A DNA stretch of 64,000 bases from Candidatus Nyctobacter psychrophilus. Lineage in GTDB: Bacteria > Vulcanimicrobiota > Vulcanimicrobiia > Vulcanimicrobiales > Vulcanimicrobiaceae. The stretch is from positions 62,001-126,000 of the forward strand of contig JACRTY010000049.1 in NCBI GenBank assembly GCA_014305025.1. Reading direction: 5' to 3'. Of this stretch, positions 1,380-22,143 are shown one piece after another. The position numbers and the translations under genes are program-made. Under the pieces are notes generated by a model. The model had not been told where the DNA came from. It saw nothing but the letters and a program-made list of their open reading frames with translations, and ran no database searches. The number at the start of each line of letters is the position of its first letter. The stretch's first letter is position 1.

Positions 1380-1545
1380 ACCCGGCACGTACCGAATAGC
1401 GTTCGCGCGTCAGGAACCCGGTGAAGAGTCCGGGACGGTCGCGCCACTGTAAGCGGGGAGCCGCTTTCGGTCACTGCCGGTAACGGCGGGAAGGCCGCAA
1501 GCACGACGGCTACGATCCGCGAGTCAGGACACTGCAAGCGAACGC
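1380..1545 (+). promoter_or_regulatory. Cobalamin (adenosylcobalamin) riboswitch
   Basis: The leader of the downstream TonB receptor carries the hallmark blocks of the cobalamin riboswitch in order. There is a GGAACCCGGTGAAGAGTCCGG block near 1413-1433, the GCCACTGTAAG element near 1443-1453, a GTCACTG and GGGAAGG segment near 1470-1494, and the B12-box-like CCGCGAGTCAGGA near 1517-1529. The element ends about 40-55 bases before the start codon, fitting control of translation initiation or termination of a vitamin B12 uptake receptor. Exact ends are approximate. Confidence 0.93.
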
Positions 1546-1583
1546 GTTTTTGCACCACCTCGCGAAAGGGTCGGAAAAACATC

Positions 1584-16741: not shown

Positions 16742-16819
16742 TCTTGGAGTATCTTCAAATCCCGTCGCGGGGTTTCCAGCGGCGGGATCGTCAGTGTGAA
16801 CCATCGTTTGGAGACGAAC

Positions 16820-17230
16820 GTGTTTCGATTTCCCGTAGCTCTCATTGGGGTGATGCTTTCAGCGCTCCCGGTTGCGGCATTCGCCGACCCGGTGCCGCTG
16901 GGCGACATCACCAATACCGCGACGCTCGACGGCTCGGCATTTGCGCACGCCATCGGCTTGGTGCGGGTCAATGTGGCGGCGGGCGTCGGCAACGAGCAGA
17001 TCAACACCGCTACGATCGGCTTCGGCCGCTCGGCTTCGGACGCGATGCTGGCCGGCGTCTCCACGAGCCAGAAAATCGGTCCTATCCAAACCGTCAACCT
17101 CGGCGCGCACGACCGGGTCATCCTGTCGCCGGGCGCCTTCGCTCATGCCAGCGGCCTCGTTCAAGTGAACCAAACCGCGGGCAACGGCAATGCTTCGACC
17201 AACGCCTTCACACTGCAGGTCCACCCCTAA
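16820..17230 (+). CDS. FapB-like small secreted amyloid-repeat protein
   Basis: A 136-residue exported protein. GTG 16820 is chosen because GGAG lies seven bases upstream and the product begins with a clean signal peptide (MFRFPVALIGVMLSALPVAAFA). The mature part has two imperfect repeats, each ending in the same motif: LVRVNVAAGVGNEQIN (about residues 46-61) and LVQVNQTAGNGNASTN (about 111-126). The V-N-x-x-A-G-x-G-N-x-x-x-N pattern recurs in the next protein and resembles the amyloid-core repeats of Pseudomonas FapB/FapC. By position and small size it corresponds to FapB, the minor nucleating subunit. It is followed by the large repeat protein after 42 bases. Confidence 0.75.
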   Translation: MFRFPVALIGVMLSALPVAAFADPVPLGDITNTATLDGSAFAHAIGLVRVNVAAGVGNEQINTATIGFGRSASDAMLAGVSTSQKIGPIQTVNLGAHDRVILSPGAFAHASGLVQVNQTAGNGNASTNAFTLQVHP

Positions 17231-17272
17231 CCCCATGCGACCCTTTCGTCCCTTTCGAACTGTGAGGTCATC

Positions 17273-18958
17273 GTGAACCGATCTTTCCTTTCCGTGCTGG
17301 GCACGGTAGCCATCGTCGCAGCAGCCGGCTCTCCGGTGCTCGCCGACGGAACCAGCAATCAAAATAGTTCCGGCGCTTCGGGCGTCATCACCATCAGCCC
17401 CACCGCGATCCTGACCGGCAACGTGCTCAAAGCGGCCTCCGGCAATGCCGGGGTCAACGTTGCGTCAGGCGTCGGCAACAGCCAGACGAACATGACGATC
17501 ATCCACGGCAACGGCACGCTCAGCAGCGCGCTGACCGGCGCCGGTGCGGGCAAGACCGCCGCGTCGAGCGCATCCTGCAACTGCTCGTCCAACGGCGGTC
17601 TGCGGCTCAACCAGTCGACGACCGACCTCAACGGCGTGCGCGTTCAGGGCAACGGCCTGACCGAAACCAATACGAACACCGTGAGCGACCATCTGGCGAT
17701 CACGGCCAACGAGAACTCGACCTATAATCGCAACAGAACGTCGAGCTCGAACAGCAACTCGACGGCGACGACGACCAACATGAAGTTCGAAGCAAAACAG
17801 GCTTCGAGCGCATCGAATTCGGCGTCGAACTCCTCGGCCACGCTCAACGAGTCGGCCAGTGCGACTCAGGACAGCAACTCCTCGAACAGCAAGAACCGGA
17901 GCGCCTCGTCTTCGAGCAGCAGCTCTTCGAACAGTAACAGCAACTCGAGCAACAGCGCGAACAGCCACAATGACTCGAGCAACAGTTCGAACAGCCACGC
18001 AGACTCCAGCAACAGCGCGAACAGCCATCGTGACTCGAGCAACAGCGCCAACGATCACAGCGATTCGAACGCCAACGTCTCGGCTAACGGTTCCCAGAAG
18101 TCGAAGTCGTCTGGTTCGAGCGCGTCGAACCACACGCACTACAACAACGGCGGCGGCAATTTCGGTGAGTCGCAGGACCATTCCAAGAACAATAGCTCCT
18201 CGGGCGATTTCAACGCCAGCGCGAGCCAGTCGGCCAACGACAACTCCAACAGCAACAATTCGTCGGACAAGAACGCCAACAGCAACAACTCGTCCGACAA
18301 CAATGCCAACAGCAACAACTCGTCCGACAAAAATTCCAATAGCAACAAGTCGGCCAGCAGCTCGGCATCGGCCAACGCCGCCAACGCAAGCGCCGCGGCC
18401 TCAGCGGAAAACGCGTCGAGCCACAAGGACGCTTCCGCGACGCTGAACGCAAGCGCCTCGGCGACGAACAGCGCTTCGAGCTCGAAGAACAGTGCCTCCT
18501 CGAGCATGAGCATGTCGGGCAACACGACCACGACCAACAAGAGCGCCTCGAGCAATTCGTCTCTGTCGGACAACAGTTCCAGCACGTTCAACGAGAACGT
18601 CGACGCGACGCAGACGCACACGGTCACCAACTCCCAGACCTTCACGGCAACCGGGTCCGTGAACGCCGGCGCCGATGGCGTCGGAGCGGGTGCCACGGGC
18701 AACATCGGCGTCAACGTGGCGGCGGGCGCCTTCAACAACCAAGCCAACGCGACGCTGATCAGCGCTCCGGGCAACATGGGCCAGAGAGCGTCGATCCGCG
18801 CCAACCAGAACGTTTCGGGTCTCCGTAACATCCTGACGGCCAACACCAACGCCTCGGCCACCGGGAACACGTTCAACGGTGCAAGCGGTAACCTCAGCTT
18901 GAACGTTGCCGCCGGCGTCGGCAACCAACAGAGCAACTCCCTCGTCGTTCAACCCTAA
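17273..18958 (+). CDS. fapC: FapC-like large Ser/Asn-rich amyloid subunit
   Basis: A 561-residue secreted protein (GTG 17273 preceded by GAGG; signal peptide to about residue 25, ending VLADG). It has three copies of an amyloid-type motif: GVNVASGVGNSQTN (about 60-73), GVNVAAGAFNNQAN (about 479-492) and LNVAAGVGNQQSN (about 543-555). Between the first and second copies lies a very low-complexity linker of about 330 residues dominated by Ser, Asn, Ala, Asp and Lys, including 10-residue tandem repeats. This layout, amyloid repeats separated by variable linkers, is that of FapC, the main subunit of Pseudomonas Fap fibrils. A CNC pair sits near residue 101, away from the C-terminus. The linker is far longer than usual. 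Function as fibre subunit is inferred. Confidence 0.82.
   Translation: MNRSFLSVLGTVAIVAAAGSPVLADGTSNQNSSGASGVITISPTAILTGNVLKAASGNAGVNVASGVGNSQTNMTIIHGNGTLSSALTGAGAGKTAASSASCNCSSNGGLRLNQSTTDLNGVRVQGNGLTETNTNTVSDHLAITANENSTYNRNRTSSSNSNSTATTTNMKFEAKQASSASNSASNSSATLNESASATQDSNSSNSKNRSASSSSSSSSNSNSNSSNSANSHNDSSNSSNSHADSSNSANSHRDSSNSANDHSDSNANVSANGSQKSKSSGSSASNHTHYNNGGGNFGESQDHSKNNSSSGDFNASASQSANDNSNSNNSSDKNANSNNSSDNNANSNNSSDKNSNSNKSASSSASANAANASAAASAENASSHKDASATLNASASATNSASSSKNSASSSMSMSGNTTTTNKSASSNSSLSDNSSSTFNENVDATQTHTVTNSQTFTATGSVNAGADGVGAGATGNIGVNVAAGAFNNQANATLISAPGNMGQRASIRANQNVSGLRNILTANTNASATGNTFNGASGNLSLNVAAGVGNQQSNSLVVQP
17945..18064 (+). repeat. Four 30-bp tandem repeats inside the fapC-like gene
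   Basis: Units at 17945-17974, 17975-18004, 18005-18034 and 18035-18064 encode variants of the decapeptide SSNS(A/S)N(S/D)HxD. DNA identity between units is high and changes cluster at the last codons, so the array grew by tandem duplication and probably varies in length between strains. Confidence 0.85.
18260..18349 (+). repeat. Three 30-bp tandem repeats inside the fapC-like gene
   Basis: Units at 18260-18289, 18290-18319 and 18320-18349 encode SSD(K/N)N(A/S)NSN(N/K). They are unrelated in detail to the array at 17945 but share its 10-residue period, hinting that the linker length per repeat is constrained. Confidence 0.85.
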
Positions 18959-19028
18959 ACCAAAAACGGACGGCGGCGCGGAATCTACCGCGTCGTCGTC
19001 CTCGTTCTTTTCATCGGGGAATTCCACA

Positions 19029-19742
19029 GTGAAGCGATCTTGGTTCATCCTCACCGCGCTCGTCGCGGCGCTCCTCTGGCCGGCGCAACCGGTGCGCGCG
19101 AACGACAGCGTCGGCGCGCTCGTGGCCGTGCAGGGCGAGGATGCGGTTCACCACGTGCTGAGCATGCGCGAGCGGCGCTTCGACGGCATCGTCGAAGAGC
19201 GGCTCGATTTCTCGTGCGGCGCGGCGGTCCTGGCGACACTGTTCCGTGACGGGTACGCGGCGCCGGTTACGGAGCGCGACGTGTTCGCCGGGATGCTCAA
19301 CGTCTCGGATGCCGCAACCGTCAGCCGGCGCGGCTTCTCACTGCTGGACATCAAGAATTATGCTAAGACCGTTGGGCTCGGAGCCGAGGGATTCAACCTC
19401 CCCATTCGCTCGCTCGGCGATCTCAAAGTGCCCGGAGTCGTCCTCCTCAACTATCACGGCTATCATCATTTCGCGCTTCTGCGCCACCTCGACGACCAGT
19501 ATGCGTACGTCGCGGATCCGGCGCTGGGAAACCGCGTTCTTTCACTGCCCGATTTCGCATCAGAATGGAATGGTATCGTGCTCGTCATACTCGGCCAGGG
19601 CTATCGTACCGATAACGTGCTCGCGCGCGTGAAGGCGCCGCTCGGCACGAGCGATCTGCTGGCAGCGTCGCCGAACACGCCGCTGCCGGAAGTCAACGCG
19701 ACGTTGATGTTCATCGGCGCGCCTGCGGTGCAACGGATATGA
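19029..19742 (+). CDS. fapD: FapD-like C39-type cysteine peptidase, exported
   Basis: A 237-residue protein with a signal peptide (KRSWFILTALVAALLWPAQPVRA; start GTG 19029). It carries a papain-like C39 fold: catalytic Cys63 in RLDFSCGAAVLATLF, His146/147 in YHGYHHFALLRHL and Asp163 in YVADPALGN. In Pseudomonas, FapD is a periplasmic C39-like peptidase needed for Fap fibre secretion; C39 enzymes of ABC exporters are instead fused to transporters, which is not the case here. The position directly after the large repeat protein, followed by an ATGA overlap with the next gene, matches the fap operon. Substrate is presumably one of the neighbouring secreted proteins (inference). Confidence 0.85.
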   Translation: MKRSWFILTALVAALLWPAQPVRANDSVGALVAVQGEDAVHHVLSMRERRFDGIVEERLDFSCGAAVLATLFRDGYAAPVTERDVFAGMLNVSDAATVSRRGFSLLDIKNYAKTVGLGAEGFNLPIRSLGDLKVPGVVLLNYHGYHHFALLRHLDDQYAYVADPALGNRVLSLPDFASEWNGIVLVILGQGYRTDNVLARVKAPLGTSDLLAASPNTPLPEVNATLMFIGAPAVQRI

Positions 19743-20620
19743 AACGCTCTCTCGTCGCGGCAGCGCTTCTGGCGAGCGTGGTTCTTCCGGCCACGTCGGT
19801 TCGGGCCGACGATTCCGTCGATGCCGCGTTCGGCGCGAAGGCTCCGGCGGCTGCGCCTCTGGCCGATGCCGCATTGCGTGACGTCCGTGGTCACTATATC
19901 GTACCGCAATCCGCCGCCGCTCCCATCGGCGCACGGGCGCTGAACGCAAGCGCGGCATCGGCGACGCAAACGGCGACGGCGGGAGCATCTTCAAGCAGCG
20001 CCGGCAGCGCAGTGCCGGGAGGGGGTAACGCTCTGGGAGGCCGCGTCGTTTACTTCGGATTCGACTTGAGTTCCGTGTTTACGACGCACGGGCCGGGAGG
20101 TGCGACGACGTACAGCGCCGGTGAAGCCGTCGGTATCGACTTGAGCGGTGCCAAGCCGGTCGTGACCGTCAACTCGTACACCGCGCGCGGCGGCGCCGCA
20201 GGCGGCTCCGTAGCGGGAAGCGGAAGCACCGCCGGCACGATCGCCGACGGTCGCATCGCCGGCGTTGGGCAGACGATCCAGATCGCGGGCAACGGCAATA
20301 CCGTCACCAATGGCGCCACGGTGGACGTTTCCACGGTACGCCCGACGCTGGTTCTCAATTCGCTGTCGGGCACGGCGTGCGGCTCACCGTGTACCGTAAA
20401 CGTGGACCCGGGAGCACTGGGCGTCGCCATCAATCTGCCGGGCGGCCAAATTTCTCAGGGCATTGCGGGCGGCTCGGTGTATCAAGCGGTGCAGCTCACG
20501 ACGGGCGGCAACGCGGTTGCCAACCAACTGAAGCTTGCGCTGCAGGTGGCGCCCGGCACGGGAACGGCGGTGACCGCGCCGGTCAACCTCATTCCCTCCA
20601 CGCTGCAGTTGCTTCACTAG
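19739..20620 (+). CDS. Secreted accessory protein in the FapE position
   Basis: A 293-residue exported protein (ATG 19739 overlapping the previous TGA; signal peptide ending SVRADD). It opens with an Ala-rich stretch containing LADAALRDVRGHYIVP, then a Ser/Gly/Ala-rich linker, then a repetitive Gly/Val/Thr-rich beta-type region. That region has IQIAGNGNTVTNGATVDV and NLPGGQISQGIAGGSVYQA, reminiscent of the amyloid-repeat proteins next door. A C-x-x-x-C pair lies at C214 and C218. I do not find a firm family match; the FapE assignment rests on order (between FapD and FapF) and secretion. It could be a minor fibre component or assembly factor. Confidence 0.65.
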   Translation: MKRSLVAAALLASVVLPATSVRADDSVDAAFGAKAPAAAPLADAALRDVRGHYIVPQSAAAPIGARALNASAASATQTATAGASSSSAGSAVPGGGNALGGRVVYFGFDLSSVFTTHGPGGATTYSAGEAVGIDLSGAKPVVTVNSYTARGGAAGGSVAGSGSTAGTIADGRIAGVGQTIQIAGNGNTVTNGATVDVSTVRPTLVLNSLSGTACGSPCTVNVDPGALGVAINLPGGQISQGIAGGSVYQAVQLTTGGNAVANQLKLALQVAPGTGTAVTAPVNLIPSTLQLLH

Positions 20621-20652
20621 CGAACGACCTCCATTCCAGAAAGCGTTTTGTG

Positions 20653-22143
20653 ATGAAATCGACCATGCTTCGCCGTTCCGCCGCCTGTAGCGTTTTGCTC
20701 GGCTTTGCGACGCCGCTCATCGGTGCGGCACCCGCGCCGAAAAGCGCGGGGGCGAACCTCGCCGATCAGTTCAAACATCAGCTCGTCGCTCAAGTCGTTG
20801 CCATCGCGCCGGCGCCCGCGGCCCGCAAGAAAGCACCTTCGAGAGTAACCTCCAAGGTCGTGGCCATCGTGCCGGGCAACGCGGACGCAGCCGCGCTTCA
20901 AGCCACGCTCCTCGCGGTCGAAGAGCGCTTGCAAGCCAAGAACGGCGATCAGCAGGCGCAGATCAACGAGTTGCGCTCGGAGATTGCGCAACTCAAGGCG
21001 ATGCGGGCTGCCGGCGTCGTCGGGCCCGTGTCACCGCGAAGCTTGGCGGCGGTCAGACCCGCGAGCGGCGCGACCGCGCGGACCTCGGCTGCGACAACGG
21101 CTGCCTCCGCAACCGCCGGCGGTGCAACGAAGACCGTCGCCAGTGCAGCGGTGCCGGCCGGTGCTCCCGAACAGGCTGCGTTGACGACCGCTCCCACCGA
21201 CGCCAGCGTCCAATCGGTCTACCAGCAGCAGAACGCACTGTTTCGCCGAAACTTGACCGTGACGCCCAGCATTACGCGCGCATACAGCGACAACCGGTTC
21301 TTTACGCTCAACGGTTTCCTCGCTCTTGATGCGATTTTTTTGGGCAACATCAATGTGACGCAGCAGCGTAGCGACATCACGGAGCTGGGTCTCAACGCGA
21401 CGTACGGCTTGACCGACCGCCTTCAGATCGAAGGTCAGGTCCCGTACTTTAGCCGTTCGACCACGTTCTCATCAGTGGGCGCCAACGAGTCGGGCGCATT
21501 GCCTTCGCAGGACCGCGTCACGAGCAGCGGTATCGGCGACGTCTTGCTCGGCGGCTATTATCAACTCGCCCGGGAAAAAGGCAACGCTCCGGGCGTGACC
21601 CTCAATGCGCACGTCTCCCTGCCGACCGGACGCTCCCCGTACGGCATCAAGTTGCTCAACGATGCCAGCAATTCCAGTCTGCAATATCCCGGCGCTCTTC
21701 CGACGGGCTCGGGCGCCATGGGTTATGAACTCGGTGCCAGTTTCGTGAAGACGAGTGATCCCGCGATTTTCTTCGGCGGCGCGAACGTCTATTACAACCA
21801 CCCGACGTCGTTCCGCGATCTGAGTACCGACCCGACCGTGCACCAGCCGGGCATTGCTCAGCCCGGCAACGCTTTCCAGTACCAGATCGGCACGGCGTTC
21901 GCCCTCAACGAAAAGACGTCGCTCTCGTTCGCCTTCGACGACATTACGACGGGCGAGACCGTTTTACAACCGATTCACGGTAAGCGCACGAGCGTGGTGG
22001 GTAGCGGAACCAACGCGGCATATCTGAGTATCTCCGCTGGGTACGCCCGCGACCGCCATCAGACCGTCATCACGGAATTCGACCTCGGCCTCACGCAGGA
22101 CGCCCCGAATTTCCAGCTCAACCTCCGCCTCCCCCACCACTAA
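20653..22143 (+). CDS. fapF: FapF-like outer-membrane exporter: coiled coil plus beta-barrel
   Basis: A 496-residue protein. After a signal peptide (KSTMLRRSAACSVLLGFATPLIGA) and a basic/Ala-rich stretch comes a clear coiled coil at about residues 77-118 (LLAVEERLQAKNGDQQAQI then ELRSEIAQLKAMRA). A Thr/Ala/Pro-rich linker to about 185 follows, then a beta-barrel of the phenol-degradation/MetA-like porin type with regular outer-membrane strands (LGLNATYGLTDRLQIEGQVPYF, GIGDVLLGGYYQLA) ending in NFQLNLRLPHH. Pseudomonas FapF has exactly this architecture, a periplasmic trimerising coiled coil and a 12-strand pore that secretes FapB, FapC and FapE. It is the last gene of the set. Bases 20621-20652 hold only the spacer. 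Confidence 0.83.
   Translation: MKSTMLRRSAACSVLLGFATPLIGAAPAPKSAGANLADQFKHQLVAQVVAIAPAPAARKKAPSRVTSKVVAIVPGNADAAALQATLLAVEERLQAKNGDQQAQINELRSEIAQLKAMRAAGVVGPVSPRSLAAVRPASGATARTSAATTAASATAGGATKTVASAAVPAGAPEQAALTTAPTDASVQSVYQQQNALFRRNLTVTPSITRAYSDNRFFTLNGFLALDAIFLGNINVTQQRSDITELGLNATYGLTDRLQIEGQVPYFSRSTTFSSVGANESGALPSQDRVTSSGIGDVLLGGYYQLAREKGNAPGVTLNAHVSLPTGRSPYGIKLLNDASNSSLQYPGALPTGSGAMGYELGASFVKTSDPAIFFGGANVYYNHPTSFRDLSTDPTVHQPGIAQPGNAFQYQIGTAFALNEKTSLSFAFDDITTGETVLQPIHGKRTSVVGSGTNAAYLSISAGYARDRHQTVITEFDLGLTQDAPNFQLNLRLPHH

Follow-up and report, generated by a model that had tools for sequence, protein, structure and literature searches.

The functional amyloid (Fap) system of Pseudomonas, encoded by fapABCDEF, is the closest described relative of a locus that we analyze here in a 64,000-nucleotide stretch of DNA (the window) from the genome of Candidatus Nyctobacter psychrophilus, a member of the phylum Candidatus Eremiobacterota. 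The published distribution of Fap ranges from Beta-, Gamma-, and Deltaproteobacteria, to which one study limited it (PMC3792158), through 25 added genera and fapD–fapF pairs noted in 5 more phyla (PMC6173800), to a 2025 survey that adds Desulfobacterota, Nitrospirota, and Bacillota to Pseudomonadota, with a figure that may include unnamed phyla in gray (PMC12822426). The view that Fap is mainly proteobacterial, taken by a first-pass annotation of the window made from the sequence alone, is therefore out of date. In the 2025 surveys, three repeats were reported in 1031 of 1094 FapC and in 93.9% of 1095 FapB proteins (PMC12392863), and Fap was termed “evolutionarily fixed” (PMC12822426).

Fap outside Proteobacteria is thus not new; what goes further here is the variable repeat architecture of the fiber subunits and a leader motif in FapE. 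A literature search, including the names WPS-2 and Vulcanimicrobi- and judged by title, turned up no publication that links Eremiobacterota with this system. The phylum may be new in print for Fap, or the 2025 data may already include it without naming it. In NCBI taxonomy, the phylum name leads to Vulcanimicrobiota, placed in Bacillati, and the locus accordingly places a Fap fiber system in a lineage that NCBI assigns to that group.

A fapBCDEF operon in Eremiobacterota

The window carries a real, complete-looking fapBCDEF operon, a known kind of system in a little-studied phylum. Five plus-strand genes spanning positions 16820–22143 stand in the canonical order fapB-fapC-fapD-fapE-fapF by their best matches to the NCBIfam models (Table 1), which bears out the order read in the first-pass annotation; significant FapD and FapF matches, set beforehand as its test, were obtained. 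The intergenic gaps are 42, 70, −4, and 29 bases, all 5 frames are open, and GC content at third codon positions (GC3) is coding-like throughout, including a long linker in FapC. All 5 proteins have, as judged by eye, a signal-like N terminus. The FapB-like protein also matches the FapC model, and the 2 subunits were assigned by operon position. Above its cut-offs, Pfam recognizes only Peptidase_C39 in FapD and, in FapF, Phenol_MetA_deg, a general family of barrels; FapB and FapC match no family, and FapE reaches only 0.77 to an unrelated one.

Compared with Pseudomonas fapABCDEF, the locus retains 5 of 6 genes in the same order, with homologous repeats, a C39 peptidase with its triad, FapE, and a FapF barrel, whereas it differs in the lack of a detected fapA, the 2 repeats of FapB, the approximately 370-residue Ser/Asn-rich linker of FapC, and the nonproteobacterial host; its relatives further differ in having FapC proteins with 4 and 12 repeats. 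FapA, the optional chaperone, which was not seen in the first-pass annotation either, gave no match anywhere in the host genome in a model search. The same model detected it in 6 of 15 Pseudomonadota genomes and in 0 of the 8 family genomes that carry the operon; as the model misses the other 9 Pseudomonadota, a divergent FapA could escape. With fapA also absent from 6 of 16 genera with Fap (PMC3792158), its absence is ordinary for accepted Fap operons.

FapD and FapF are members of larger families (PMC3792158), and the FilB and FilC models of Acinetobacter match the window proteins too (98 and 38 bits), as would be expected if the locus were a broader FapD/FapF-type or Fil-type system of C39 peptidase and barrel with unrelated cargo. 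We regard this as very improbable. Fil was compared by hidden Markov model (HMM) score only, and the window proteins match the Fap models much better (FapD 183 versus FilB 98 bits; FapF 261 versus FilC 38 bits), so that FilB and FilC are not the best matches. Moreover, FapB and FapC repeats and FapE are present at the locus, and 7 loci with FapD and FapF only (L019, L020, and L073–L077) split from all Fap sequences with support of 100/100 in the FapF and concatenated FapD+FapF trees, which were built without Fil sequences.

Variable repeat number of the fiber subunits

Repeats were counted with a 40-column HMM seeded with 129 repeats from the same sequences. Fragments of 3.9 and 4.0 bits (L061 and L065) and single repeat-like matches of 14.6–20.4 bits in 4 FapE proteins (L065, L066, L068, and L070) were not counted, and an L076 open reading frame (ORF) with a single regular-expression match was kept out of the seed set. 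The window FapB has 2 imperfect 38-residue repeats (46.6 and 47.3 bits), which by eye resemble the first and third repeats of FapB in relatives. The window FapC has 3 imperfect repeats of about 38 residues, with the linker (31% Ser and 20% Asn) between repeats 1 and 2, and matches solved FapC in sequence searches (PDB 9nqd, 1.2e-10; 9u4u, about 1e-10). The 2 amyloid-type repeat proteins of the first-pass annotation are thus FapB and FapC by both HMM and repeats, corrected in detail: FapC has 3 repeats split by a linker and FapB only 2.

Within the host family, FapC has 3 repeats in the window, L013, L014, and L015, 4 in L011, L016, and L017, and 12 in L012, whereas FapB has 2 in the window and 3 in 6 others, among them L016, whose FapB is cut by the contig edge; the FapB of L013 lies off the contig. 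Of the 16 FapC proteins detected in a Pseudomonadota panel, 15 have 3 repeats and the one of L061 has 4 (the L058 FapC, missed by the repeat HMM, is outside the 16), and FapB has 3 in 17 of 17. The 12 repeats of the 882-residue L012 FapC are 3 tandem copies of a 4-repeat unit, 49% to 57% mutually identical (153/286, 127/257, and 145/255). A FapC repeat number other than 3 hence occurs in 3 of the 5 operon-bearing genera (L011; L012; L016 and L017), for which the chance at the published departure rate of 5.8% is about 0.002 by a hand calculation that ignores shared ancestry, likely to matter here. With 3 of 5 genera departing, 1 of them with 12 repeats, repeat number and fiber layer geometry become comparable in natural variants.

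A structure was predicted with AlphaFold for the 4-repeat FapC of a relative, L023, the window FapC being only a lower row in its alignment. The low-confidence model shows 4 similar beta-rich stretches. In Foldseek, which scores sequence as well as structure, it has a single PDB match at E ≤ 0.001, to the fibril structure 9u4u of FapC (E 5.2e-6, probability 1.00; TM 0.56 by target length and 0.32 by query length; next match 0.49). This structural check on the repeats, favorable for the relative's protein, supports a FapC-like fold but falls short of proof. Curli (csg) resembles the present system as a diderm amyloid export system with Asn/Gln repeats, whereas it has a different exporter and no known C39 peptidase, and the L023 model matches CsgA (8c50) only at 2.5. 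Curli repeat number varies between lineages (PMC12822426).

A FapB with only 2 repeats, together with a long-branch FapD, would fit a decaying or nonfunctional operon in this genome. We consider decay improbable: no frame is interrupted, the catalytic residues are retained, GC3 is coding-like even in the linker, and the scores of both FapB repeats are as high as those of other repeats.

A leader motif in FapE and the substrate of FapD

The window FapD has the residues C63, H146/H147, and D163 exactly as the first-pass annotation gave them for a C39-type peptidase, and matches Pfam Peptidase_C39 at 1.5e-15. In the double-glycine leader consensus of C39 substrates, L stands at −7, a hydrophobic residue at −4, and G at −2. 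The window FapE carries LRDVRGHY at residues 46–53, and the pattern [LM]xx[MLIVQ]xG[KRHE][YF], written after the sequences had been seen, occurs near the N terminus of 25 of 25 FapE proteins from 2 phyla, including 17 of 17 from Pseudomonadota, in register with that consensus, against a background of 0.056 per 25 in shuffled sequences and 3 of 1626 other ORFs. It takes the form RG[KR][YF] in 21 of the 25 (both phyla). The Pseudomonadota proteins were found with an HMM built from the 8 family operons, which detected FapE, 17 proteins in total, at each of the 16 Fap loci searched in that phylum; in 16 of the 17, the match starts with an N-terminal stretch that ends near model position 68 or earlier, the stretch in which the motif lies.

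The FapD/FapF-only loci share with the window operon a C39 peptidase, a nearby FapF-like barrel, and a secreted protein adjoining the peptidase, whereas they lack FapB/FapC repeats by the repeat HMM (the L076 ORF has its single regular-expression match), carry a literal RGG motif, and form a separate clade. At 7 of 7 of these loci, [LM]xxxRGG occurs close to the peptidase gene, in 10 of the 28 ORFs there, compared with 2 of the 261 remaining ORFs. Like the FapE motif, the pattern was shaped with the sequences in view and is not an independent test: a stricter version fell on an RGG site at only 2 of the 7 loci (L075 and L076) and was then widened. One or 2 secreted-looking [LM]xxxRGG proteins stand beside the C39 gene, some of them Asn-rich toward the C-terminal end (L019, L073, and L077). 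The loci possibly represent a separate fiber secretion class.

The FapE motif in C39 register in 25 of 25 proteins, together with the RGG protein beside the peptidase at 7 of 7 FapD/FapF-only loci, suggests FapE as a substrate of FapD, with the motif as the candidate cleavage site. In Pseudomonas, FapC secretion depends on the active-site cysteine of FapD, and peptides from about the first 70 residues of FapE were not seen; GG and GA motifs were noted in FapE, a canonical C39 site was noted in none of the Fap proteins, FapF processing was also considered possible, and the target of FapD was left open (PMC5557850). It is for this target that the leader motif supplies a candidate. We found no description of the motif in the literature, within a search of papers mostly judged without full text and with bioRxiv preprints outside its scope.

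The FapF barrel and the outer membrane

The window FapF comprises a signal-like N terminus, a coiled-coil region, and a beta-barrel from about residue 185, the arrangement for which the first-pass annotation had likened it to FapF. The NCBIfam FapF match spans profile positions 19–418 of 420, and a sequence search aligns residues 185–497, the barrel, with crystallized FapF (PDB 5o68) at 2.6e-60. By homology, the protein is predicted to form the 12-stranded trimeric barrel with a coiled coil. The outer membrane assembly protein Omp85 was found in all 5 genomes tested of the 8 (G000, G057, G083, G087, and G111), so that an outer membrane is likely in the host group. LptD (PF04453) was found in 0 of the same 5, with a model that matches only 2 of 14 controls, and the outer membrane may thus differ from that of Pseudomonas, the usual lipopolysaccharide export protein being either absent or too divergent for the LptD model. 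A FapF scan of viral contigs gave a single 17-residue match in the coiled-coil region (query 100–116, 71% identity), which is not FapF.

Distribution and phylogeny

The host genome (3.22 Mb, 93% complete) is a draft of 58 contigs, with the operon on a 214-kb contig. The distribution of the system is patchy. Among 149 genomes of the phylum, the FapF model matches 8, which all belong to one family. With a clade-trained FapF profile, 13 of 99 family genomes match: 8 in full, in 5 of 38 genera, and the remaining 5 with weak 19- to 22-bit matches confined to the N-terminal third. In the 7 other operon-bearing family genomes, the Fap genes follow the same order as in the window, and all 5 genes are present at 6 of the 8 loci (window, L011, L012, L014, L015, and L017), the L016 contig starting inside fapB and that of L013 at fapC. 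By eye, the genomic neighbors of fap vary between genera.

For comparison, we used a Pseudomonadota panel of 15 genomes (L058–L072) from the phylum of the L025 genome, whose label they inherit, and Aeromonas caviae. The Pseudomonadota loci (L058–L072 and L018) have the same gene set, with fapA undetected in 9 of 15 genomes and the FapE leader motif in every FapE, but differ in their near-constant repeat numbers and lie on separate branches of the FapF tree. One of them, L067, carries 2 Fap sets side by side, with 2 each of FapB, FapC, FapD, and FapE; only one of its FapD proteins entered the FapD and FapD+FapF trees.

In the FapF tree, the 8 family loci form one clade (100/100) within Fap and apart from the FapD/FapF-only loci, which supports Fap outside Proteobacteria and answers the proposed FapF phylogeny check. 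The FapD+FapF tree recovers the same clade (100/100). The nearest FapF-tree sequences, L062 and L025 (both labeled Pseudomonadota; L025 has FapF alone on its contig), join at 91/82. The FapD phylogeny check came out only in part: FapD separates from the FapD/FapF-only loci (100/99), but the window FapD sits on a long branch (1.92), and FapD alone fails to place it with its relatives: the 8 loci come together in 46% of bootstrap trees. We therefore relied on the FapF and FapD+FapF trees.

A draft assembly leaves room for a proteobacterial operon mis-binned into this genome, yet the operon lies inside a large contig with GC and GC3 close to those of 3 neighboring genes, and its relatives from 7 other genomes of the family join it in the 100/100 clade. 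We give contamination hardly any credence. The long branches make a recent transfer of Fap into the family unlikely. In an approximately unbiased (AU) test, all Pseudomonadota Fap as one clade was not rejected (p 0.07); transfer may have run from a proteobacterium to Eremiobacterota or the reverse.

Proposed mechanism

The sequence matches, the gene order, the retained active-site residues, the numbers of repeats, the conserved FapE motif, and the outer-membrane assembly protein family described above very probably reflect a working Fap secretion system in a diderm member of Eremiobacterota. Its steps can be sketched with the aid of the Pseudomonas papers, which describe a trimeric FapF pore, the requirement for the FapD cysteine, the loss of the FapE N terminus, and Greek-key layers. 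Sec would export all 5 Fap proteins, and FapC and FapB would remain unfolded in the periplasm, where the C39 peptidase FapD may cut the N-terminal leader of FapE at the degenerate double-glycine site (L-R-D-V-R-G-H-Y). This cleavage would license or start export via the FapF barrel. Outside the cell, FapB would nucleate FapC, whose repeats would form stacked cross-beta layers of Greek-key type from which the Ser/Asn-rich linker loops out, and the resulting fiber might serve in adhesion or as biofilm matrix.

More broadly, we lean toward a reading in which Fap is not evolutionarily fixed: in Eremiobacterota, the subunit would be modular and change in size, once by duplication of a whole 4-repeat block, while the export machinery stays unchanged; across phyla, the site at which FapD matures FapE would be a leader of degenerate double-glycine type, L-x-x-[ML]-R-G-[KR]-[YF]; and Fap would be one branch of a wide class combining Sec, a C39 peptidase, and a barrel, other branches of which keep a literal RGG site. 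Several observations weigh against a working Fap system in this genome. None of the 5 window proteins reaches the curated (equivalog) NCBIfam cut-offs, although the FapF cut-off is likewise missed by Pseudomonadota loci with a full gene set (L061–L072). The FapB repeat that is missing could mean decay, and the window FapD, on a long branch, is not placed with its relatives in the FapD tree. The AlphaFold model of the L023 FapC is of low confidence (47.7, pTM 0.55) and that of FapE (36.4) is too poor for use; both motif patterns were fitted to sequences already seen; and LptD was not detected in the 5 genomes tested.

Regulatory and neighboring features

The gap between fapC and fapD contains a hairpin with a 14-pair stem (11 G-C) and a T-rich tail (−29.3 kcal/mol), a possible attenuator that could hold subunit expression above that of the machinery. 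Terminator-like sites number 9 in the region versus 7.4 in shuffled sequences. Of the 7 other operons, 1 has a comparable hairpin: L012, directly behind the stop codon of fapC (−30.4 kcal/mol). Because it is strong in only 2 of 8 operons, we dropped the hairpin as a conserved feature. A promoter scan gave 1 site, on the opposite strand, versus 0.9 expected.

Table 1. Positions of the fap genes and other features, in window coordinates unless a locus is named.
Feature	Position	Strand	Description	Evidence
fapB	16820–17230 (start uncertain, 16796–16853 possible)	+	small repeat protein, probable fiber nucleator	NCBIfam FapB 4.1e-13
fapC	17273–18958	+	major fiber subunit, 561 aa	NCBIfam FapC 6.5e-9
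fapD	19029–19742	+	C39 cysteine peptidase	NCBIfam FapD 4.8e-54
fapE	19739–20620	+	secreted accessory subunit	NCBIfam FapE 9.2e-12
fapF	20650–22143 (or 20653 start)	+	outer-membrane exporter	NCBIfam FapF 1.6e-77
Hairpin	18968–19001	+	fapC–fapD gap	
Cobalamin riboswitch	1386–1557	+		68.6 bits (gathering score 31.5)
L012 fapC	L012 7160–9808	−	12-repeat FapC	
LuxR-type (GerE) regulator	L011 8551–9327		beside fap	
LuxR-type (GerE) regulator	L014 9041–9703		beside fap	
LuxR-type (GerE) regulator	L014 9981–10940		beside fap	
LuxR-type (GerE) regulator	L016 4526–5314		beside fap	
LuxR-type (GerE) regulator	L017 2800–3348		beside fap	

LuxR-type (GerE) regulators flank fap at 4 of 5 scanned loci; at the remaining one, L012, a BTAD/AAA regulator lies upstream instead. 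Elsewhere in the window, a Cobalamin riboswitch scores well above its gathering threshold.

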